A stretch of 46,087 nt of DNA, from NCBI RefSeq assembly GCF_029937855.1, contig NZ_JAPYPC010000014.1:1-46087 (forward strand), read 5' to 3'. A model generated the notes under the pieces. It did no database searches. It was not told the origin of the DNA and saw only the letters and a program-made list of their open reading frames with translations. Both the position numbers and the translations under genes were made by a program. Shown here in pieces: positions 7,934-46,087 of this stretch. Source of the stretch: Christiangramia sp. (GTDB lineage: Bacteria > Bacteroidota > Bacteroidia > Flavobacteriales > Flavobacteriaceae). Numbering within the stretch: the first letter of the stretch is position 1; each line of letters begins with the position of its first letter.

Positions 7934-9148
7934 ATGGAGACTTACTTATGGATTTATATCATAATTGGTTTATTTGGTCTTTTTTTACCATGGCTTAAAA
8001 GTTTCGAAAAAATTCAAATCCTCAATGTACCTATAGTAGCTATAATTATGGGAATGCTTCTATTCTCTCTTCCCATTAATTTACCCGAGCCAAATCCAAT
8101 AAAATATGAAAAAGAGATATTAAAACTATCTGAAATTGCAGTTATAATTAGCTTGATGGGTGCCGGTTTAAAAATTAATCGTGACTTTTCATTTAGAGCA
8201 TATCGAGTGCCTTTACTTTTGATTCTTTTTACTATGACAGGATGTATCGCAGCAACCGCCATTCTGGGATGGTGGTTTGGATTGGTTCCTGCAACAGCTC
8301 TTTTGCTTGGCGCAGTTTTCGCTCCTACAGATCCTGTTCTTGCCAGTGATGTACAGGTAGAAATAGAAGAAAACGCCGATAAAGAGCATCCCGTGCAATT
8401 CAGTCTTACCAGTGAAGCAGGTCTGAATGATGGTATGGCCTTCCCTTTTACCTGGCTTGCCATTTCGGTCGCTATGTATGGCTTTACTTTTAATGATTGG
8501 TTAAGCACATGGATATTTAAAGATTTACTTTATCGTATCATTGGGGGAATTATTCTTGGGTATGCATTTGGGAGAATAATTGCTTGGTTTTTTTTTTCAT
8601 TACCACCTAAAATTAGTATCAAACCGAAGCGCTTAGGGTTTCTTGCAGTAGCTGTCACCTTTTTTATATATGGTACTTCTGAGGCTGCACAGGTGTATGG
8701 TTTCATTGCAGTATTTGTAGCAGCCCTTACTATTCGGCATCATGAAAAACAACATACATTTCATAAAGAAATGCATGATGTTGTCGAACAGGTTGAGCAA
8801 TTCTTACTTACAATAATTTTGATGTTATTAGGTGGGTATATTGTACATAGTTGGTTTCAGGTTTTAACATTTCCTGTTATTAGCTTATGCTTAATATTTA
8901 TTTTTGTTATCCGGCCATTCTTCGGCATTTTCCCAACTTTATCAACGGCTATGCCCTGGAAACACCGCTGGTCTGTTGCGTTTTTAGGAATTAAGGGAGT
9001 TGGTAGTTTCTTTTACCTCGCCTTTGCTCTACATGAAACGGATTTCCCCCAAAAGGATCTTTTATGGAGTACAGTAGCATTTTTAGTACTTATATCTGCC
9101 ATTGTTCACCGAATTGTAGGGTTTTATGTCAAAAAGAAAATTTTGTAA
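7934..9148 (+). CDS. Na+/H+ antiporter, CPA1 (NhaP-like) family
   Basis: A 404-residue polytopic membrane protein with about 12 hydrophobic segments. FAPTDPVLASDV and TSEAGLNDGMAFPF are the two characteristic motifs of CPA1 cation:proton antiporters, the second carrying the Asn-Asp pair needed for ion binding. It would exchange cytoplasmic Na+ (or K+) for protons, which fits a marine or halotolerant organism. No cytoplasmic regulatory tail (TrkA-C or CNMP) is present, and the protein ends soon after the last membrane helix. It appears monocistronic, with gaps on both sides. The exact ion specificity cannot be read from the sequence. Confidence 0.9.
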   Translation: METYLWIYIIIGLFGLFLPWLKSFEKIQILNVPIVAIIMGMLLFSLPINLPEPNPIKYEKEILKLSEIAVIISLMGAGLKINRDFSFRAYRVPLLLILFTMTGCIAATAILGWWFGLVPATALLLGAVFAPTDPVLASDVQVEIEENADKEHPVQFSLTSEAGLNDGMAFPFTWLAISVAMYGFTFNDWLSTWIFKDLLYRIIGGIILGYAFGRIIAWFFFSLPPKISIKPKRLGFLAVAVTFFIYGTSEAAQVYGFIAVFVAALTIRHHEKQHTFHKEMHDVVEQVEQFLLTIILMLLGGYIVHSWFQVLTFPVISLCLIFIFVIRPFFGIFPTLSTAMPWKHRWSVAFLGIKGVGSFFYLAFALHETDFPQKDLLWSTVAFLVLISAIVHRIVGFYVKKKIL

Positions 9149-13522: not shown

Positions 13523-14083
13523 TTAGGACTTAATTAACGGAATAACGAAAGCAGTAAAATGGCCATGATGGCTTAAGGAAAAAGGCATAATTTTATCTAT
13601 TCCCATTATATGTAAAGAAGGAATATTCTTTGGATCTTTTGTTATACGAAGCATATCTGCTTCAAAGGATAGCTTTAATGCCAAATGTTTCAATAAATCC
13701 TCCTGTGAGAAAATTTTATTAAAATAGATTTTTCGCAGAATTTCTGCAGAATCAACCCAGCTATGAACATAATTGGGAGAAATTTCCGTTTTTGTATAAT
13801 AAAATTTCTTGCCTACCCGTACGGTTCCTGCATTTTCCATTGATCTTAAAGAACACTCAAAAGCTAAGGGATTCAATTTTCTTAAAGTGCCGGTTATTCG
13901 CTGGTGTGCTTTATAAACTGCTTCTTTCATGGACCAAAATTCCCAAAGCATTATATTGGGACATTCAGATTCATGAATGCACTCTATCTCCTTAGGAGAA
14001 AAGACCTTTTTCAGAAATCGGAAATTACCAGCTTTACTGGTGGTTAAGGATATATTAAGATCTATAATATCATTTCCTATCAA
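13523..14083 (-). CDS. 4'-phosphopantetheinyl transferase (AcpS/Sfp-like)
   Basis: A 186-residue enzyme that transfers the phosphopantetheine arm of CoA to a carrier-protein serine. The two signature blocks are present: GNDIIDL at residues 3-9 (Mg-binding Asp) and FWSMKEAVYKA at 49-59 (WSxKEAxxK). The end of the protein keeps a FSLSHHGHF element typical of the Sfp-like fold. It overlaps the ACP gene by 4 bp, a strong sign that it activates that ACP. A private PPTase in the operon suggests that the pathway does not depend only on the housekeeping AcpS. Confidence 0.9.
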   Translation of the reverse strand: MIGNDIIDLNISLTTSKAGNFRFLKKVFSPKEIECIHESECPNIMLWEFWSMKEAVYKAHQRITGTLRKLNPLAFECSLRSMENAGTVRVGKKFYYTKTEISPNYVHSWVDSAEILRKIYFNKIFSQEDLLKHLALKLSFEADMLRITKDPKNIPSLHIMGIDKIMPFSLSHHGHFTAFVIPLIKS

Positions 14084-14331
14084 TTCGCCAGTTTTTTCTC
14101 AATAATATTTTTTGCATCGCCCACGGTAAGCATCCCTTCCATGGAATCATTATCAATCTCAATATTAAATTCATCTTCCACATCCAGGACTACATCTACC
14201 AGATTGGCAGAGTTTATCTGGAGATCGTTTAAAAAATCAGTCTCTTCCCTAAAATTTTTCAAGCCTTCCATTCGTTGCACATAAGGTTCCACGATCTTCT
14301 TTAGCCTGATAATTATCTCTTTTTCATTCAT
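14080..14331 (-). CDS. Acyl carrier protein
   Basis: An 83-residue acidic four-helix carrier. The phosphopantetheine site is Ser41 in DLQINSANLVDVVLD. The usual DSL triplet is changed to NSA, so the Asp before the Ser is Asn and the Leu after it is Ala, while the following LVDVV helix-II pattern is kept. This marks it as a specialised rather than housekeeping ACP. It lies 2 bp after the ketosynthase gene and overlaps the PPTase gene by 4 bp. I infer that it carries the growing acyl chain for the ketosynthase, dehydratase and reductase and hands it to the type III PKS. Confidence 0.9.
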   Translation of the reverse strand: MNEKEIIIRLKKIVEPYVQRMEGLKNFREETDFLNDLQINSANLVDVVLDVEDEFNIEIDNDSMEGMLTVGDAKNIIEKKLAN

Positions 14332-14333
14332 AA

Positions 14334-15608
14334 TTAAACAATATATTTTTTGAATAACACTACGGCATTTACATCTCCAAAACCAAAACTGGCTTTAGCC
14401 AAAATATTAATTTTTTTTTGCTTTTTTTCCTTCGGAATTTTATTTGGATCTATCAATTCTGAAATTTCCGGATGCACCTCCTCACAATTTAAATTTCCGA
14501 AAATAAACTCTTTTTCTACCTGAAGCACAGAGGCGACGCACTCAATAGACCCGGAAGCACTTAAGCAGTGGCCGGTCATCCCCTTAAGGGAATTTATAAA
14601 AGGAAAATCTTTGCCTTTCCGCTTCAGCGCCTTTGTCCAATTTTTAATTTCTGTGGAATCCCTGCTTGTAGCTGTTAAATGCCCATTTATAACATCAATT
14701 TCAGTTGACTTAATATTCGAATTAATTAAAGCTCTCTCAATACATCGCTGTACCGCTTCATTATTAGCGGCAGTCATACTTCCTGTCCCTCTTTGTCCTC
14801 CGCTATTGATTTCACCTCCCAGAACTTCAGCATATATTTTAGCACCTCTCTTTTGCGCCAGTTCCATATCTTCCAATACTAAAGCTCCGGCACCACTTCC
14901 CGGAACAAAACCACTGGCGGTTTCGCTCATAGGCCGGGATGCTTTTTCTGGATCATCATTATATCTATTCGGCAAAATACGCATGGCATCAAAACCACCC
15001 CAAACATAAGGTCCATGATCTGCACAACTTCCTACAAGCATTCGTTTTGCCCTGCCAGCTTTTATCCGGTCAAAACCCATAAGTAAAGCTTCAGTTCCTG
15101 TAGTACAGGCTGATGAATTGGTAGTGACCTGGTTTCCACAACCGAGAATTCCGCCAAGATAAGCACTAATTCCGCTAGCCATAGTTTGTATCACACTCGT
15201 ACTGCCCAATCTCCTGGTTTTACCTCCATCGATCAAATGAATTGCTTCCCTGAATTTATCAACGCCCAGAATTCCTGTTCCAAAAATAATCCCTGAATCC
15301 CAATCTGGTGATCCATTCTCAGAAATTTCAAGTCCTGCGTCTTTCCATGCATCTGTACCAGAGATTACACCATAAACGATCCCGCTGCTATTTAAACCGC
15401 GAAGCTGAAGCGGCGTAAAGTACTCTTTTAAAAGATCTTCGGAAATTTCAGGCTTCCCTCCTATCTGGCAACTAAAATTTAGTTTTTCCAATTCAGGAAA
15501 AAAACGAATCCCACTCTGACCCTGTTTTAAGGCTTTTTCAAAATTATTTAGTCCTACTCCATTAGGTGCTGCCACCCCCATTCCCGTAATCACGACTCTC
15601 TTCTCCAT
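14334..15608 (-). CDS. FabF-like beta-ketoacyl-ACP synthase
   Basis: A 424-residue condensing enzyme of the KAS I/II class. The catalytic triad is intact: Cys168 in NSSACTTGTEALL, His310 in NGHLTATSRD and His347 in LKGMTGHCLSASGS, with Lys342 preceding the last. The His310 block departs from the standard AHGTST, so it is a divergent clade and not housekeeping FabF. It would elongate malonyl units on the ACP encoded 2 bp downstream. The dehydratase gene ends 4 bp upstream. No chain-length-factor partner and no acyltransferase are encoded in the operon, so malonyl-ACP presumably comes from housekeeping FabD. Confidence 0.92.
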   Translation of the reverse strand: MEKRVVITGMGVAAPNGVGLNNFEKALKQGQSGIRFFPELEKLNFSCQIGGKPEISEDLLKEYFTPLQLRGLNSSGIVYGVISGTDAWKDAGLEISENGSPDWDSGIIFGTGILGVDKFREAIHLIDGGKTRRLGSTSVIQTMASGISAYLGGILGCGNQVTTNSSACTTGTEALLMGFDRIKAGRAKRMLVGSCADHGPYVWGGFDAMRILPNRYNDDPEKASRPMSETASGFVPGSGAGALVLEDMELAQKRGAKIYAEVLGGEINSGGQRGTGSMTAANNEAVQRCIERALINSNIKSTEIDVINGHLTATSRDSTEIKNWTKALKRKGKDFPFINSLKGMTGHCLSASGSIECVASVLQVEKEFIFGNLNCEEVHPEISELIDPNKIPKEKKQKKINILAKASFGFGDVNAVVLFKKYIV

Positions 15609-15612
15609 TCTT

Positions 15613-16056
15613 TTACTGAGTTTTTATCATCATTCCGGCAATAACTCCTTTACAAACCATACTTCCTTCTGCATTATACATAACCACCTTGCATTTGAGC
15701 TTATTAAATCTAAAATATTGTTTTTCTGAAACTACCCTTACCGTTTCACCCGGATAAATAGGTTTTAAATATTCAATTTCTGAAGATGTCAATGCTACCT
15801 GAGATAAATTCTCTTTTTTATTTTCAGTATTTAATAAATAAATTCCCAGACAAACAACACCAATCTGAGCCATACACTCTGTTAATATGACACCTGGTGT
15901 GACGGACTTATTTTTAAAATGTCCTCTATAAAATTCCATTTCCGGTAAAAATGTGAATTCACCGATAATAGAATTTTCATCTACTTCAAGAATATGATCT
16001 ACGAATAAAAAAGGTTCAGAATAAGGTAACTGTGAAATAATAGAAGTACTGTCCAA
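15613..16056 (-). CDS. FabZ-like 3-hydroxyacyl-ACP dehydratase
   Basis: A 147-residue single hot-dog protein. PFLFVDHILEV, YRGHFKNKSVTPGV and ILTECMAQIG align with FabZ; the expected catalytic residues are His46 and Glu60. It would remove water from 3-hydroxyacyl-ACP intermediates. It lies 4 bp before the ketosynthase gene and 18 bp after the SDR gene. Clustering with KS, ACP and an enoyl-reductase-like SDR argues for a role in building an acyl chain for the type III PKS and not in bulk fatty acid synthesis. Confidence 0.88.
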   Translation of the reverse strand: MDSTSIISQLPYSEPFLFVDHILEVDENSIIGEFTFLPEMEFYRGHFKNKSVTPGVILTECMAQIGVVCLGIYLLNTENKKENLSQVALTSSEIEYLKPIYPGETVRVVSEKQYFRFNKLKCKVVMYNAEGSMVCKGVIAGMMIKTQ

Positions 16057-16074
16057 CTTGTTGTGTGATTACAA

Positions 16075-16869
16075 TTACATTAAGTGTTCGCCCCCGTTCA
16101 CGGGAATAATGGTACCGGTTATCCAGCTGGCTTCATCTTTGCTTAATAGATACACTGCGTTGGCGACATCATCTGGAACGGTTAATCTCCTAAACGGATT
16201 ATGTTTTAAAGCGTGCACGCGTAAGGTCTCATTTCCAGGAATCATTTGGAAGGAACGGGTTACGGTAATTCCGGCCTGAATACAGTTTGCCCTTATCCCA
16301 TGCCTGGCAAATTCCAACGCCATACTCCTGGTAAGTGATTCCAGAGTAACCTTTGCTGCTGAAACTGCCGCATAGTTCTTCCATGCTTTTTTATTGCCGT
16401 CACTGGTAAAAGAAATTACCCTGGCATCTTTAGCGAAAAGATTATTTCTAAAAACAGCCTGCGTCCAATCGTAAAGACTTAAAGCCATGGCATCTATGGT
16501 TAGCTGAAAATCAATATTTCCCAAAATATTTTCTTCGCCAATCATAGGTTTTAGATTTCCTTTGGCTATACTGTGCAAGAGAGTTCTAATTTTGCCTTTT
16601 TTACCTATAAGCTGTTTTATTTTGGCAACCAGCTCTTCCCTGCTTTCTTTTTTTACAGCATCGGCATTAAAGCTTTCAAATTGAACGCCCGATGCTCTAA
16701 TTTCGTCAAAAGCTTCTTCAATATCAGGTATTTCGCTTCTCCTGTCACGATGAATAATAATAATGTTCATCCCATGTTTGGCCAGTTTTTTAGCACTGGC
16801 ATAACCAAGGCCGCTACTTCCCCCCAGAATAAGTGCCCAATAATTTTGATCTTGAAAGTCCATCACCAT
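16075..16869 (-). CDS. SDR, enoyl-ACP-reductase-like (FabL/FabI type)
   Basis: A 264-residue short-chain dehydrogenase. The nucleotide-binding motif is GGSSGLG at residues 16-22 and the catalytic pair is Tyr166 and Lys173 in NYAAVSAAK. The spacing is Tyr-x6-Lys, as in FabI and FabL enoyl reductases, and not the Tyr-x3-Lys of ketoreductases such as FabG. This points to reduction of enoyl-ACP. Its start overlaps the end of the type III PKS gene by 7 bp; a second ATG two codons later forms a TGATG stop-start junction. If the assignment is right, the operon lacks its own ketoreductase and would borrow FabG. Confidence 0.85.
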   Translation of the reverse strand: MVMDFQDQNYWALILGGSSGLGYASAKKLAKHGMNIIIIHRDRRSEIPDIEEAFDEIRASGVQFESFNADAVKKESREELVAKIKQLIGKKGKIRTLLHSIAKGNLKPMIGEENILGNIDFQLTIDAMALSLYDWTQAVFRNNLFAKDARVISFTSDGNKKAWKNYAAVSAAKVTLESLTRSMALEFARHGIRANCIQAGITVTRSFQMIPGNETLRVHALKHNPFRRLTVPDDVANAVYLLSKDEASWITGTIIPVNGGEHLM

Positions 16870-17915
16870 TCTATTAAAATTCTTTGTGCCGAAAAACCGG
16901 GACCAAAACTGAGCATGATTCCTTTTTCCCCTCTTTTGATATTTTTATTCAAAAATCTTTCAAGGACATAAAGAACCGTTGCACTACTCATATTACCATA
17001 AAGGCGTAAAGTTTCCCGGGTATCGTCTATATTCTTTCCTAAGTTACCAAAAAGATCAGAAACTGTCTGCACAATTTTTCTACCACCGGGATGAAATATT
17101 AAATGATCCACTTTATCTATTGAAGTTCCGTATTTCTCCAAAAACGGATGTATTATCTCCGGAAAGTGACTGGAAATAGTCTCGGGAACCGCAGGGTCTA
17201 GGATCATTTGTAAGCCCGTATTTTTAAGGTCAAAACCCATCATATGAGTGGCGTCAAAAAAATGGTACATTTCTTCTCCTACTATGGCCGGGCCAACGGC
17301 ATTCTCTTCAGAAGATAGTAAAACGCAGGCTGCTCCATCCCCAAAAATAGCTGCACTCACCATATTTGCCATACTAAAATCATCAAGCTGAAAAGTGGCC
17401 GTAGGGCTTTCTACGGCGATCACTGCTGCTCGTTTACCAGGATTAGCTTTTAAAAAGTTGTAGGCGTATATCATTCCTGAAATTCCCGCTGCACAACCCA
17501 TTTCGGTTACCGGCAGGCGGGTGATATCTCGCTTTAAATTAAGCTCATTTATTAAATAGGCATCCAGAGAAGGTATCATAATTCCGGTACAACTAACCGT
17601 AATTATATAATCCAGGGAATTTGGTTCCCAGCCCGAATTATCTAAGGCTTTCTTCAGAACATTCCCCCCTAATTTCTTCACTTCCCGAACATAAATATTA
17701 TTCTTGTCTTCAAAGGAAGTTGCCGTAAAAACATCTTCAGGAGACATGATAGAATATCTTTTATCTACTCCGGCGCCCTCAAAAATCTTAAGGATTTTTC
17801 TTCTGAACCTTTCATCCTGATCTGCCAGCCAATCTTCCACAAGAGGTAACACGTCTCTTGTTTCTCGTGAATATTCCGGAAGCTCCTTTTCAACCTTAGC
17901 AATTTTTACACTCAT
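16863..17915 (-). CDS. Type III polyketide synthase (chalcone/stilbene synthase superfamily)
   Basis: A 350-residue homodimeric-type condensing enzyme that extends an acyl starter with malonyl-CoA and cyclises the product. The Cys-His-Asn triad is complete: Cys141 in TEMGCAAGIS, His275 in IFHPGGRK and Asn308 in RLYGNMSSAT. The C-terminal SFGPGFSAQ loop is the family signature. The length is typical. It sits in the middle of the operon, 3 bp after the methyltransferase gene and overlapping the SDR gene by 7 bp. Bacterial relatives make alkylresorcinols, alkylpyrones or phloroglucinols. The adjacent acyl-chain-building genes favour a long-chain acyl starter; ring type and chain length cannot be read from the sequence. 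Confidence 0.94.
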   Translation of the reverse strand: MSVKIAKVEKELPEYSRETRDVLPLVEDWLADQDERFRRKILKIFEGAGVDKRYSIMSPEDVFTATSFEDKNNIYVREVKKLGGNVLKKALDNSGWEPNSLDYIITVSCTGIMIPSLDAYLINELNLKRDITRLPVTEMGCAAGISGMIYAYNFLKANPGKRAAVIAVESPTATFQLDDFSMANMVSAAIFGDGAACVLLSSEENAVGPAIVGEEMYHFFDATHMMGFDLKNTGLQMILDPAVPETISSHFPEIIHPFLEKYGTSIDKVDHLIFHPGGRKIVQTVSDLFGNLGKNIDDTRETLRLYGNMSSATVLYVLERFLNKNIKRGEKGIMLSFGPGFSAQRILIEW

Positions 17916-17918
17916 AAT

Positions 17919-18638
17919 TCAATGATTCTTTTTAATAATCCACTGGTACCTAAACGCCCATTTCCAGGAAATTTCATGATTTTCTGCCGGAATCTCTAAA
18001 GCAAACTTCTTAATATCTTCCTTTTTAAAACCTCGTAAAATAGAAATTAAACCGTCTTTACGAGCAATTTTATTATGAACGAAAACCGCACAAAATGCTT
18101 TAAAAAGAAAATAAGCTGAGCTGCTTCTTTGTAAATCATTGACCACCACTCCTAATCTGGATTGCTGGGATAATTGCTTTATGAGGCTCATAATCTCCCG
18201 ATCCTTAAAATGATGTAATGTTAAGGTACAGAGGATGATATCAAATTCCATTTCTTTAAAAATTTTACTGAAAATATTATAGTCCAGGAATTTTAAATTG
18301 GTTTGATTTTCTGATAATTCGGTGGCGATTTGAACCGCATGCGCGTTCGCATCGATCCCGGTCAATTCAAAATTATAATTTTTACTTTCGGCCCATTTGG
18401 CAATTTTTCTAAGCATCGCCCCATTTCCGCACCCAATATCAGCAATACTGATTTTTTTTGATTTCGGACATTCACTTATTAATTTCTTAATTCCATCAAT
18501 AGTAATTTGATTGCCGCCCAACCAGGCATTTATATTCTCCAAATCTTTTAATGTGCGTCGCAAATCATTTCCCATAAGATCGAAATCATCCATAATCTCG
18601 CTCTCCTTGCTGCGATATGAAGTATCTATTTTAAACAT
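17919..18638 (-). CDS. SAM-dependent methyltransferase
   Basis: A 239-residue class I methyltransferase. Motif I is ADIGCGNG at about residues 66-73, followed by an acidic ELTGID strand end and FDIILCTLTLHHF, a common motif IV/post-IV pattern. It overlaps the flavin oxidoreductase gene by 8 bp and ends 3 bp before the type III PKS gene. Methyltransferases next to type III PKSs elsewhere methylate a ring hydroxyl or the ring itself, as SrsB does for alkylresorcinols. I infer a similar tailoring step here; whether it is O- or C-methylation is open. Confidence 0.88.
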   Translation of the reverse strand: MFKIDTSYRSKESEIMDDFDLMGNDLRRTLKDLENINAWLGGNQITIDGIKKLISECPKSKKISIADIGCGNGAMLRKIAKWAESKNYNFELTGIDANAHAVQIATELSENQTNLKFLDYNIFSKIFKEMEFDIILCTLTLHHFKDREIMSLIKQLSQQSRLGVVVNDLQRSSSAYFLFKAFCAVFVHNKIARKDGLISILRGFKKEDIKKFALEIPAENHEISWKWAFRYQWIIKKNH

Positions 18639-19758
18639 GAACTTTCTTTCCGTGAGTTCTTTTAATAATTTGTGGTAACAAACCTGGTATTTTATTTAAA
18701 ACACCCTGGGAAATATTCGCAAAAGATTTATTCAATAAAATTTTTTGTAGTATTCTGCCAGTTCTAATTCTGGATCTAAAATGTTGATTCCATTCCTTTC
18801 TATAATTATTTTCAATATCTCTACGAGTTTTATTTCTATCGTTGTAGAAGCTCAGGAGGTTTTCTGCTGCAATTTTTGCACTATGAATTGCCATGGCCAT
18901 TCCATTCCCACATAAAGGATGGATTAACCCTGCTGAATCTCCAATCATGAGAATATGATTTTCGATAAGTGATTTTTTATCAAAGCAAACCTGCGCTATG
19001 CTTAGTTCTTTTTTAAAATCCATTTCAGCAAGTTGGAAAAATTCATTTAAATGAGGGTTTTTCATTAGAACCTGTTCTTTGTATTCACCGGTATTCTTCT
19101 GATTTTTAAAACTCTCATAGGTTGCCAGATAACAAACATTTATAGTATTCAAATCTGTTCTCGAAAGACCGCAATAGCCTCCTTGAAAATTATGCAGGGA
19201 AACCAGGTTCTCAGGATATATTTCAGCCTTATAATGGGCTTTCACTGCAAGCCATCCCGACTGATCCTGAATAAACTTTCTTTTTAATTTCTTATCAAGG
19301 TTAGAGCGTTTTCCAAATGCTCCTAACACAAATTGCGACTGTATTATTTTTCCATCAGCAGTAGTTACTCTAAAATTCTGGTTGTTATATTCTATTTCTG
19401 TAGCTAAAGAATTTATTAGCTCACAGCCCGCATTTTTTGCTTTAGTATATAATAAATGATCAAGGGAGTACCGACTTACCCCAATACCACCCATCTCCAA
19501 ATTAGCTTCTATCAATTTTCCTGAAACTGTCGAATACCGCAACCTATCAATCTTCGGTGCTTTGAGGCTACTTAGATCTAACTCCAAATATTCTAAATAC
19601 GGAATGATTTCCTGGGAAAGATATTCGCCACAAACTTTATGGTGGGGATAATTTTCTTTTTCCAAAAGAACTACCTGAAGATTACTTCTACACAGATGTA
19701 TTGCTGCTGTTAAACCTGCCAGGCCTCCGCCGATGATTATGATCTGGGTATTTTGCAC
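18631..19758 (-). CDS. FAD-dependent oxidoreductase (UbiH / geranylgeranyl-reductase superfamily)
   Basis: A 375-residue flavoprotein. The dinucleotide-binding motif GGGLAG lies at residues 10-15, the phrase HHKVCGEYLS at about 39-48 is typical of geranylgeranyl-reductase and halogenase relatives, and ILMIGDSAGLIHPLCGNG in the C-terminal half is the second FAD motif. The start is a GTG directly after an in-frame TGA, and no ATG upstream or soon downstream would keep the Rossmann motif. It is the first gene of the type III PKS operon. By analogy with SrsC, it may hydroxylate the phenolic ring towards a quinone; reduction of a double bond is the alternative. Confidence 0.88.
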   Translation of the reverse strand: MQNTQIIIIGGGLAGLTAAIHLCRSNLQVVLLEKENYPHHKVCGEYLSQEIIPYLEYLELDLSSLKAPKIDRLRYSTVSGKLIEANLEMGGIGVSRYSLDHLLYTKAKNAGCELINSLATEIEYNNQNFRVTTADGKIIQSQFVLGAFGKRSNLDKKLKRKFIQDQSGWLAVKAHYKAEIYPENLVSLHNFQGGYCGLSRTDLNTINVCYLATYESFKNQKNTGEYKEQVLMKNPHLNEFFQLAEMDFKKELSIAQVCFDKKSLIENHILMIGDSAGLIHPLCGNGMAMAIHSAKIAAENLLSFYNDRNKTRRDIENNYRKEWNQHFRSRIRTGRILQKILLNKSFANISQGVLNKIPGLLPQIIKRTHGKKVHV

Positions 19759-19780: not shown

Positions 19781-19809
19781 AAAAAAATCCCGGATGAAGA
19801 TCCAGGATT
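19781..19809 (-). terminator. Intrinsic terminator after the OmpA-like gene
   Basis: Minus-strand AATCC-A-or-C-GGAT arms (19786-19795 and 19800-19809) pair over nine bases with one mismatch, a GAAG-type loop and a run of seven T residues at 19787-19781. It lies between the OmpA-like gene (stop at 19837) and the start of the type III PKS operon at 19758. Confidence 0.8.
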
Positions 19810-19836
19810 CTTTAAAGTTCTTTTCAAAAAAACCAA

Positions 19837-43289: not shown

Positions 43290-46087
43290 TTAAAAATCTA
43301 TAGATTCGTAAATCACTTTCTGGATCTCAGAGCGTATATCTTCCCGAATAAGTTTTCTGTTATTCGAATCTGGATATGTTCGGTTAGACAAAAATACATA
43401 AACAATTTCTTCCTCCGGATCTGCCCAGGCTAAGGTTCCTGTAAAGCCGCTATGCCCAAAGCTGGACATGGAAACACAATTACAGGTAGGCCCCACTTGC
43501 TTTAGTTGTGGTTTGTCGAAGCCCACACCTCGCCTTACATCATCTTCACAATAATAACAAGTATTATACTTATCTATAGTTTCTTCATTCAGAAATTTCT
43601 CTCCTCCATAAGAACCGCCGTTTAAATAGGTTTGCATGATCTTGGCAACATCATTGGCGGTACTAAAAAGGCCTGCATGACCGCCAATACCCCCTTGCAT
43701 GGCAGCTCCCTGGTCATGAACATAACCTCTTACCACCTGCCTTCTCCATAATTGGTCATTCTCGGTAGGCGCTATTTGTAAACTATCAAATCTCGTTCTT
43801 GGCAAATACCCGGTATAATTTGCACCCAGGCGCTGATAAAGGTGTTCCTGTGTAATATTTTGCATAGAAGAATCATAATACGCTTCCAGGTAATATTTTA
43901 AGAGATAATAGGGAAGATCACTGTATTTATAAGCCAATCGTCTCTCCAGGTCACTATTTCTGATGGTATTCACAATGGTATCGCCAATATCTTTTCTAAT
44001 AAACATCTTATCTGCTACCTGAGCATTAAATAATTCTGACGGAACCTCACTATAATAAGAGTTAGAAACTTTTTTGGTTCTTGGATCTATAGTTGAAATG
44101 TAAAAAGGGATCCAGGCCTGCAATCTGGCATAATGCATCAACATATCCTGTAACCTGATATTCTGTTTATTTGAGCCTTTAAAGGAAGGGAAAAGCTCTC
44201 CCAATGTAGTATCAAAACCTAAAACTCCTTTTTCATCCAATTCCATGACCAAGGGCAGAGTAGCAAGAATCTTAGTTAATGAGGCCAGATCATAAACCGT
44301 AGTATCGCTCACCGGCAATTCTTTTTCATAGGTTTGATATCCAAAACTCTTTTGATAGAATACCTTTCCTTTTCTCGCTACCAGAATTTGAGCTCCAGGA
44401 GTCATCTTTTTATCTATGGCATTTTTTATAATACTATCTATCTTCTTCAGTTTTGCTGAATTCATTCCCACACTTTCCGGGGTACCGTAAGCCAGTCTTT
44501 TCAGGTTTTTTGTATTGAAACCAGTGTTTACAGGGAATTCACTCTTAATACTTACCGGAAGCCTACCCCTGGCATTTAAAGCCCCAAACAACACCTGAGC
44601 AACTTTTTCCTGGGCAACAGGATGATTTTGATATCCTATAATAATCCCCTCCAGATTGGCAAAGCTCTTTACCTCATTAAGTGCATAGGGTCTGGAAAAC
44701 AGTGATAATACCGTTTTATTTTTTCTGGCTATTTCATGCAACCAAACCAACTCCTTATCAGAAAACTTATAAGAAGCCCAGGGACTTTTATTCGATTTAT
44801 GAAAGCCAATCACCACATAGTTGTAAGCCTCCAATTTCTCAAGCAAATCCGGCAACTTAGCTGCTTTTACCCAATCAATTTCAGCATATTTTTTCATCTG
44901 GTTCAAAAACGGACTTCCGTCATCATCACCAAAATTGACATAGGCTATTTTCTGCTTTTCCAGATTTTTTACAGGAACAACTGCTTTATTATTTTTTATA
45001 AGAGTTGTTGCATTTTCATAAAGCTCACCTAATAAAGCCTCATCTCTTGAGGTATATAATTCTTCTATAAGAAAATTAGTAGTAATCGGCTGGAAATTAT
45101 TTAAACCTACCTTATATTTTGCATAAAGTATCTTCTTTACTGAAAGCTGCAATCTTTCTTCTGAAACCTGCCCAGAATTTACCGCCTCTATAATACTGGC
45201 CGCTGCTTTTCCAATATCTTCACTCATAAGCAACACATCATTTCCTGCCATAAAAGCATCCAGGTCTACTTCACCTGGCTCTTTATTTTTAGACACGCCC
45301 TTCATATCCAGGGCATCAGTAAAAATAAGTCCATTAAAGCCCATATTTTTTTTGAGAATATCAGTGATAATGCTTTTGGAAAGCGATGCAGGTTTTCCGT
45401 CTTTTGATTCCAAGGTGGGGACATTTAAATGTGCAACCATAACACTGCTTAGACCCTTTGGGATAAGTTCCCGGTAAGGATGGAGCTCAACTTCGTTAAT
45501 TCTTTCCGCAGAAAAATTTATTGTTGGTAAGGTTTTATGCGAATCGGAATCTGTATCACCATGTCCCGGAAAATGTTTTGCACTGCTAAGCACCCCTTCC
45601 CTGTGCATCCCATTCATAAAAGCCAGTGCTTTTTCTGTGACATTTATTTTATCCTCGCCAAATGATCTGTTGCCAATAATGGGATTATCGGGATTGGTGT
45701 TAATATCCACTACCGGGGCAAAGTTAAAATGCACTCCGAGTCTTTTAGTATGCCGGGATATGGCAGCACCTGCCTCCTCTATTAATTTATTATCCTGAAT
45801 GGCACCCAGCGTCATATTCCAGGGTAAAGCAAAAGTACTGTCAAGCCTCATGGCAAGACCCCACTCTGCATCCATACCCACAAGAAGTGGTATTTTAGAC
45901 ATTTTTTGAAATTCATTGGTAAGCTGCGCCTGCCTTACCGGGCCACCTTTAGAGAAAATAAGTCCCCCAATATGATTTTCCCTGATCTGTTTTCGAATAC
46001 TATCAGCTTCGTTCTCATTCCTGGACCAGATACTGGCCATAAATAACTGTCCTACTTTTTCCTTTAAGTTCATGGAATCATACACAC
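43290..46087 (-). CDS. GH3 (NagZ-like) glycosidase fused to a beta-lactamase-like serine hydrolase, N-terminus cut by window edge
   Basis: At least 931 residues; the frame is still open at the window end, so the first residues, probably a signal peptide, are missing. Visible residues 1-330 are a GH3 domain with SAKHFPGHGDTDSDSH at 168-183 (the Asp-His general acid/base loop of NagZ-type N-acetylglucosaminidases) and the nucleophile Asp257 in FTDALDMKG. Residues about 345-530 are a GH3 C-terminal domain. Residues about 540-925 form a class C beta-lactamase/DD-peptidase fold with SLTK (SxxK), a YKYSD segment and HSGFTG. It is likely an envelope enzyme in peptidoglycan recycling. bshA follows 3 bp later. 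Confidence 0.9.
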   Translation of the reverse strand, partial: VYDSMNLKEKVGQLFMASIWSRNENEADSIRKQIRENHIGGLIFSKGGPVRQAQLTNEFQKMSKIPLLVGMDAEWGLAMRLDSTFALPWNMTLGAIQDNKLIEEAGAAISRHTKRLGVHFNFAPVVDINTNPDNPIIGNRSFGEDKINVTEKALAFMNGMHREGVLSSAKHFPGHGDTDSDSHKTLPTINFSAERINEVELHPYRELIPKGLSSVMVAHLNVPTLESKDGKPASLSKSIITDILKKNMGFNGLIFTDALDMKGVSKNKEPGEVDLDAFMAGNDVLLMSEDIGKAAASIIEAVNSGQVSEERLQLSVKKILYAKYKVGLNNFQPITTNFLIEELYTSRDEALLGELYENATTLIKNNKAVVPVKNLEKQKIAYVNFGDDDGSPFLNQMKKYAEIDWVKAAKLPDLLEKLEAYNYVVIGFHKSNKSPWASYKFSDKELVWLHEIARKNKTVLSLFSRPYALNEVKSFANLEGIIIGYQNHPVAQEKVAQVLFGALNARGRLPVSIKSEFPVNTGFNTKNLKRLAYGTPESVGMNSAKLKKIDSIIKNAIDKKMTPGAQILVARKGKVFYQKSFGYQTYEKELPVSDTTVYDLASLTKILATLPLVMELDEKGVLGFDTTLGELFPSFKGSNKQNIRLQDMLMHYARLQAWIPFYISTIDPRTKKVSNSYYSEVPSELFNAQVADKMFIRKDIGDTIVNTIRNSDLERRLAYKYSDLPYYLLKYYLEAYYDSSMQNITQEHLYQRLGANYTGYLPRTRFDSLQIAPTENDQLWRRQVVRGYVHDQGAAMQGGIGGHAGLFSTANDVAKIMQTYLNGGSYGGEKFLNEETIDKYNTCYYCEDDVRRGVGFDKPQLKQVGPTCNCVSMSSFGHSGFTGTLAWADPEEEIVYVFLSNRTYPDSNNRKLIREDIRSEIQKVIYESIDF

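Follow-up and report, generated by a model that had tools for sequence, protein, structure and literature searches.

An eight-gene operon of Christiangramia and other Flavobacteriaceae joins a type III polyketide synthase to its own chain-building module: an orphan pathway with a putative phenolic-lipid product

In a 46,087-nucleotide stretch of Christiangramia sp. DNA (contig NZ_JAPYPC010000014.1, positions 1 to 46,087 of the forward strand; the whole of it hereafter called the window), eight genes on the minus strand (13523-19758) form an operon that is a real, widespread, and orphan pathway. From first to last, they encode a flavin adenine dinucleotide (FAD)-dependent monooxygenase-like protein (FMO), a methyltransferase (MT), a type III polyketide synthase (PKS3), a short-chain dehydrogenase/reductase (SDR) that is probably an enoyl-ACP reductase (ENR), a dehydratase (DH), a beta-ketoacyl-ACP synthase (KS), an acyl carrier protein (ACP), and a 4'-phosphopantetheinyl transferase (PPTase or PPT). 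Going by the genes alone, we give slightly better than even chances to the reading in which the product of the operon is a phenolic or quinone lipid of the membrane type, and in which an acyl chain carried by the ACP would be turned into a ring, itself subsequently methylated and oxidized. An earlier note on this DNA had described eight minus-strand genes at this place, separated by at most 18 bp and with four overlaps; the open reading frame coordinates agree with this description and with the largest gap, but the junctions from FMO to PPTase (-8, 3, -7, 18, 4, 2, and -4 bp, negative values being overlaps) give three overlaps rather than four.

The unity of this block is best seen from its conservation. 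Relatives were gathered as 88 loci, namely 80 records (the best 80 of 579 confirmed matches) and 8 genomes that possibly duplicate some of those, and the residue counts given below are taken over the relatives long enough to align. A search for the eight-gene order in other Bacteroidota, as the earlier note had proposed, returned it unpermuted in 88/88 related loci, as FMO-MT-PKS3-(ENR)-DH-KS-ACP-(PPT) with the bracketed genes facultative, and chance is excluded because this order is conserved throughout. The PKS, methyltransferase, and FAD oxidoreductase genes are adjacent in every one of these loci, FMO, MT, PKS3, DH, KS, and ACP are all present in the 84 that are not ended by a contig edge, and DH is kept in all 87 (of 88) whose sequence extends that far. 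Across 395 Bacteroidota genomes, strong PKS3 matches (>600 bits) and strong KS matches (>690 bits) fall in the same 33 genomes, a more distant KS being found in five further ones. The operon is not rare in its family: its PKS occurs in 30 of the 41 genomes of this family that one sample contains, where every type III PKS match at E <= 1e-50 is of the PKS3 kind, and in 6 of the 12 that a second sample contains from other genera of the family. Within the genus, PKS3 is found in 23 of 24 genomes, and the exception, a congener assembled as one contig and listed as 100% complete (G009), lacks all eight operon genes. In a 19-kb stretch of this genome (L228), a search with 14 window proteins that flank the operon matched 13, in order, and the matched parts of the OmpA-like gene and of the gene following the operon lie 219 bp apart; the eight operon proteins have no match in this stretch, nor does FMO have one elsewhere in the G009 genome. 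The fourteenth flanking protein, that of the sodium/proton-exchanger gene of the window (7934-9148), has no match in the 19-kb stretch. Since exactly the eight genes are missing while the flanks are kept, the natural unit comprises these eight genes alone, and G009 provides a natural control without the whole block. Together, the invariable order, the co-occurrence of PKS and KS, and the absence of the block in G009 bear out the view, taken from the outset, that the operon is one pathway. The PKS3 and KS distances correlate at 0.88 over 64 loci, and still at 0.74 after allowing for the neighbor gene PDH. Moreover, all eight genes are under purifying selection in comparison with three congeners: nonsynonymous divergence (dN) is 0.06-0.62, whereas synonymous divergence (dS) reaches saturation in 10 of the 24 comparisons and ranges over 1.26-3.15 in the 14 others.

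PKS3 (16863-17915) carries both domains of its family (PF00195, 70.6 bits; PF02797, 67.2 bits; cut-off 27) and a Cys141-His275-Asn308 triad that is kept in 88/88 relatives. Downstream of it, the SDR (16075-16869) is of the FabL type, with a Tyr166-x6-Lys173 pair found in 75/75 relatives; its best NCBIfam profile is FabL (140.9 bits, the curated cut-off of 328 not being reached) and its closest PDB match is the enoyl-ACP reductase 3oic. A ketoreductase was considered for this protein and ruled out by the FabL ranking and the Tyr-x6-Lys spacing, which is that of enoyl reductases, and the SDR is a probable enoyl reductase of the FabL type. DH (15613-16056, TTG start) is a FabZ-type hotdog dehydratase with His46 and Glu60 in 86/86 relatives. 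KS (14334-15608) belongs to a subfamily of FabF-type synthases, with the catalytic residues Cys168, His310, and His347, conserved along with Lys342 in 84/84 relatives; against the FabF profile TIGR03150 it reaches 268.9 bits, under the cut-off of 493.75. ACP (14080-14331) displays Asn40-Ser41 in 84/84 relatives, the usual motif of such carriers being Asp-Ser rather than Asn-Ser, and the PPTase of the Sfp/AcpS superfamily (13523-14083), whose TTG start overlaps the ACP stop, keeps Asp5, Trp50, Lys53-Glu54, and Lys58 in 31/31 relatives. This PPTase evolves much faster than other genes of the operon (dN 0.51-0.62 in the three congeners, vs 0.06-0.15 for PKS3, ENR, KS, and ACP). Hence, the catalytic residues that the earlier note had read as intact in PKS, KS, dehydratase, SDR, and PPTase are present and conserved in aligned relatives, and profile scans upheld all of its family assignments, with ACP slightly under the Pfam cut-off (19.8 vs 20.8 bits). 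The fatty acid synthase (FAS)-type proteins of the operon are all single-domain (83-424 aa), and no type I multidomain FAS of the ArsA/ArsD kind is found there. The idea of a private, discrete type II set holds insofar as KS, DH, ENR, and ACP are adjacent and co-inherited, but the set is not complete, in that neither a ketoreductase nor a malonyl transacylase is found among the eight genes. Because the SDR is ENR-like, the operon is without its own ketoreductase and the host FabG would still be needed; elsewhere, the host genome encodes FabG (345.8 bits, cut-off 297.75), FabF (L184; 596.1 bits, cut-off 493.75), and one further PPTase-family protein.

The neighborhoods in which this chain module recurs are informative about its job. 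Homologous ENR-DH-KS-ACP-PPT sets were found in two genomes (G155 and G446; loci L222 and L223) head to head with a dialkylresorcinol cluster, whose DarB scores 634.8 bits in L222 and 614.7 in L223 (cut-off 550) and which, in a scan of L222 only, also yielded DarG (197.8 bits, cut-off 170) and DarH (453.7 bits, cut-off 300). The ACP is 44% and 48% identical to its homologues in L222 and L223, respectively, and a PPTase-like gene scores 24.9 and 33.1 bits there (Pfam cut-off 25). Because the chain module adjoins two different ring formers, DarB and a type III PKS, its neighborhood suggests a dedicated acyl supplier for ring-forming synthases. In three other genomes (G103, G134, and G183; loci L224, L225, and L226), a DH-KS pair and an ACP-like stretch (33-38% identity) lie beside a GT2 gene, with an ENR in L225 only and a weak adjoining GNAT match in L224 and L225, the two loci covered by that scan; this set is perhaps another use of the module. 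The L225 stretch, where an ENR-DH-KS set stands beside the GNAT-like and GT2 genes, with a BioF/serine-palmitoyltransferase-family gene ~4 kb away and no type III PKS, would fit a scenario in which the module makes an unusual membrane fatty acid, PKS3, MT, and FMO merely sharing its promoter. We regard this scenario as very unlikely for the operon, given that the linkage is invariable in the 88 loci, that co-occurrence is 33/33, and that the genes are absent as one block in G009.

Upstream of PKS3 lie two putative tailoring genes. MT (17919-18638) is a class I S-adenosylmethionine-dependent methyltransferase resembling PRK06202 (140.9 bits, cut-off of 243 not reached), and FMO (18631-19758, GTG start), the first gene of the operon, belongs to the GG-reductase/QhpG/UbiH superfamily. 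The AlphaFold model of FMO (mean predicted local distance difference test [pLDDT] 88.9) has flavin halogenases and 3-hydroxybenzoate 6-hydroxylase, a ring para-hydroxylase, as Foldseek neighbors. A flavin halogenase was thus envisaged, PltA being the first match, but the FAD motif of FMO ends in P-x2-G-x-G, which we take, from a comparison with Mpy16, to be hydroxylase-like rather than halogenase-like, an argument of little weight. Homologues of MT (29-34% identity) and FMO (37-39%) also accompany a type III PKS without any chain module in two loci, L164 and L170, where a UbiA-family gene directly precedes the PKS (L164:6886-7755, 66.5 bits; L170:7655-8518, 54.9 bits; cut-off 34.2), and it is possible that these sets specify a prenylated polyketide quinone pathway. 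As for four plasmid-borne type III PKS loci, an isoprenylcysteine-type methyltransferase is annotated next to the PKS in two, a hypothetical gene in one, and no such neighbor in one; the FAS-module genes of the operon have no match in these four stretches.

No match to a characterized cluster was found in the open-licence literature or in the curated family libraries scanned, as had been anticipated, and the likeness drawn at the outset to Srs- and Ars-type systems proves apt. The published sources are cited here from excerpts. The ars operon of Azotobacter vinelandii (ArsABCD) also combines a type III PKS with a dedicated FAS that passes on acyl-ACP (PMC6274091, PMC13291983), which ArsB and ArsC accept (PMC6274091). 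It relies, however, on a multidomain FAS of type I and a pair of PKSs (one with Trp281, the other with Gly284), whereas the operon has discrete type II enzymes, a single PKS whose Phe very probably occupies the corresponding column, and in addition MT and FMO. The srsABC, pkqABC, and hidABC sets and a planctomycetal operon likewise place a type III PKS next to a methyltransferase and an FAD oxidoreductase (PMC9927152, PMC8086630, PMC10896814), and operons of this PKS-methyltransferase-oxidoreductase kind lead to polyketide quinones (PMC9927152), hierridins (PMC8086630), and alkylresorcinols (PMC10896814). However, srs, pkq, hid, and the planctomycetal operon are described as three-gene sets, with no mention of a private KS-DH-ENR-ACP-PPTase module in these excerpts, and PkqA and the Streptomyces enzyme keep Trp281. 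The dar/flx clusters are alike through the homologous module beside DarB, but the ring former of the operon is a type III PKS, and DarB has no match at E <= 1e-60 in the 24 genus genomes, that of the host included. Last, the closest solved folds to PKS3 are those of Pks11 and CylI, the latter working with a free-standing ACP and PKS chain (PMC8086630), yet both are only 24-28% identical to PKS3 and have other partner enzymes. The operon is therefore best described as a variant of the type III PKS phenolic-lipid pathways, with an orphan product.

Drawing on these precedents, the pathway could proceed in four steps. The PPTase, or one encoded elsewhere in the genome where it is absent, would arm the private ACP. 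KS, DH, and ENR, enzyme types that are observed along with the lack of a ketoreductase, would then build a dedicated acyl chain on this ACP, of a length that we can only infer, presumably with the help of the host FabG and probably other enzymes of primary fatty acid synthesis. The resulting acyl-ACP would prime PKS3, which would add malonyl units and close a resorcinol-type ring rather than a pyrone, as ArsA/ArsB and CylI lead one to expect. Finally, MT and FMO would methylate and hydroxylate this ring, by analogy with Srs and Pkq, to give a methyl- or methoxy-alkyl-hydroquinone or quinone. The chain type and the cyclization mode may nevertheless differ from the precedents, because PKS3 falls in a distinct subfamily with a Pro171/Phe228 pocket. 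The class of the product first proposed for this DNA, a methylated and oxidized alkyl- or acyl-phenol, pyrone, or quinone lipid, is a prediction, and the PKS active site differs from those of the other type III PKSs compared.

Several observations, first of all on this active site, weigh against the phenolic-lipid reading. Pro171 and Phe228, which line the pocket, are kept in 88/88 PKS3 relatives, when the other type III PKS loci retrieved for comparison (29 from Bacteroidota and 4 from plasmids, which are no census) have Cys at the Pro171 column in 33/33 and Trp at the Phe228 column in 32/33. Following the alignment to THNS, in the numbering of PMC6274091, PKS3 Cys109 corresponds to THNS Cys106, Pro171 to CHS Thr194, and Phe228 to CHS Gly256 and THNS Tyr224. 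Through this CHS/THNS alignment, the column of ArsB Trp281 is very probably that of Phe228, so that PKS3 has there neither the Trp associated with resorcinols nor the Gly associated with pyrones. Since Phe228 and Pro171 replace Trp and Cys, an alkylresorcinol outcome is not implied. The PKS3 clade has a support of 100/100 and a long stem, and approximately unbiased tests rejected a common group with the type III PKSs that accompany MT in other Bacteroidota (p 0.0029 and 0.0039); these tests were run on a quick tree, after dropping L158, L175, and three PDB rows for long branches, and on groups picked after the first tree. PKS3 is a separate type III PKS subfamily; it is not the enzyme of those other Bacteroidota MT-FMO sets, and its product can therefore not be read from precedent. 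To the same side belong the moderate confidence of the AlphaFold model of PKS3 (pLDDT 76.8) and the fact that Pks11, its closest fold, is a pyrone synthase (PMC6274091), that the role of the FAD oxidoreductase in the planctomycetal operon stayed unresolved in the excerpts (PMC10896814), and that no product of a flavobacterial type III PKS was recognized in the open-licence literature. Likewise, the PKS3-PDH correlation of 0.71 indicates that the tree agreement partly reflects plain vertical descent, and the PKS3-ACP correlation is only 0.53, no better than that with OmpA (0.58). The SDR is also absent from 13/88 loci; as the PPTase was recognized in only 31 of the 84 untruncated ones, neither gene is essential to the operon design.

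Some of these features would suit the opposite direction of flow, in which PKS3 makes a small aromatic from malonyl-CoA alone, as RppA, PhlD, and DpgA do, this aromatic is loaded on the private ACP, KS, DH, and ENR extend it into an aryl-fatty chain, and MT and FMO decorate the ring. At the column of Phe228, itself a bulky residue, the bulky Tyr224 of RppA favors a malonyl-CoA starter (PMC6274091), and the best PDB sequence matches of PKS3 are Pks11 and THNS; Cys109 matches THNS Cys106 in 88/88 relatives, yet a Cys also stands there in 10 of the 33 other PKSs. The best NCBIfam match of PKS3 is DpgA (NF042429, 172.2 bits against a cut-off of 425), an identity that we rejected insofar as this profile gives similar scores to other type III PKSs: among five of them, four of other clades reach 146-179 bits and a close relative 196. 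The match is thus generic and counts against the opposite flow rather than for it. Besides, the operon encodes no ligase to load a free aromatic acid, the MT-FMO pair and the dedicated chain module suit the acyl-first precedents, and the homologous module adjoins DarB, an enzyme that needs acyl precursors. We consequently hold this flow to be unlikely although worth keeping in view, as it would, if true, mean that a type III polyketide primes a type II FAS, which reverses the direction of the ars system.

Another alternative keeps the acyl-first order but moves the point of hand-over: KS would pass a beta-ketoacyl-ACP to PKS3, in the manner of CylI or germicidin synthase, to give an alkylpyrone or a resorcinol whose first two carbons come from KS. 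The module is without its own ketoreductase, and CylI, crystallized with a beta-ketoacyl-N-acetylcysteamine thioester (beta-ketoacyl-SNAC) among others, is the second fold neighbor after Pks11. DH and ENR would however be left without a role at that step, when DH is kept in all loci not cut off before it, and in Salinimicrobium nanhaiense (L081) a second SDR, with Tyr-x3-Lys, stands between ENR and DH as if completing the cycle. We find this hand-over quite unlikely, and retain the complete acyl-ACP as the more plausible substrate of PKS3.

A link with flexirubins was also weighed. Outside the window, the host genome encodes a flexirubin-type aryl polyene cluster (G000:C39:67000-86902, L229; FlxA 848.6 bits, cut-off 700; LolA2 236.7 bits, cut-off 125). 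The operon might accordingly supply the phenolic half of an aryl-polyene ester in the genus, in place of a missing dialkylresorcinol pathway: in a set of 59 genomes, the flexirubin TAL FlxA is over its cut-off in 21/24 genus genomes and DarB in 0/24, when FlxA-positive genomes elsewhere have DarB in 6/6, and the contig that carries the operon also carries FlxA, ~62 kb away. Two of the three genus genomes without FlxA over the cut-off are only 67% and 73% complete. Nonetheless, G009 has FlxA but not the operon, and G016 has the operon without FlxA over the cut-off, and the similar FlxA-operon distance within the genus is ordinary synteny. G024, G034, and G035 each carry operon, FlxA, and DarB, which, with G009, tells against the idea that the type III PKS product is simply a substitute. 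Such a role for the operon is in our eyes highly improbable.

Around the operon, a terminator-like hairpin with a T-run (19782-19813, minus strand) lies 23 bp ahead of FMO, in the interval that separates the operon from the OmpA-like gene; it is only suggestive, four such sites being seen in the region vs 5.5 expected. Sigma-70-like promoters were uninformative (38 sites vs 22.4 expected), and Bacteroidota use another type of promoter. Other loci show variations on the gene set. An uncharacterized membrane protein of ~141 aa stands behind ACP in 26/80 loci and never co-occurs with the PPTase, its copy at L131:13828-14253 has no Pfam match, and 23/80 loci have neither of the two. In two loci from Aquimarina, an Abhydrolase_3 alpha/beta hydrolase gene separates DH from KS (L132:12380-13279 and L136:12912-13808), and further loci have insertions near DH of small lipoprotein-like genes or of a transglutaminase-like one. 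Elsewhere in the window, a 931-aa protein (43290-46085) combines a PF00933 glycoside-hydrolase-3 domain (275.9 bits) with a PF00144 beta-lactamase-family domain (136.5 bits).

From the perspective of the family, type III PKS clusters make up 10.74% of the biosynthetic gene clusters (BGCs) in 2,680 Flavobacteriaceae genomes (PMC10734526) and 9% of flavobacterial BGCs in a smaller set (PMC7440613), and those of Aquimarina were called likely novel (PMC9323603). These orphan clusters come from the same host family, their gene set and product not being described in the excerpts. Because the operon is vertically kept, unpermuted, and present in most of the same-family genomes sampled, whose type III PKSs are all alike at the threshold used, it may lie behind much of the orphan type III PKS count of marine flavobacteria, and what it makes is probably a lipid that these bacteria produce routinely. 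Its private chain module offers a handle for finding further phenolic-lipid pathways, and its Pro171/Phe228 pocket a clear-cut way to probe the choice of starter and of ring closure by type III PKSs. If the product were a quinone, it would constitute a second redox lipid in Bacteroidota beside menaquinone, the quinone of this phylum.

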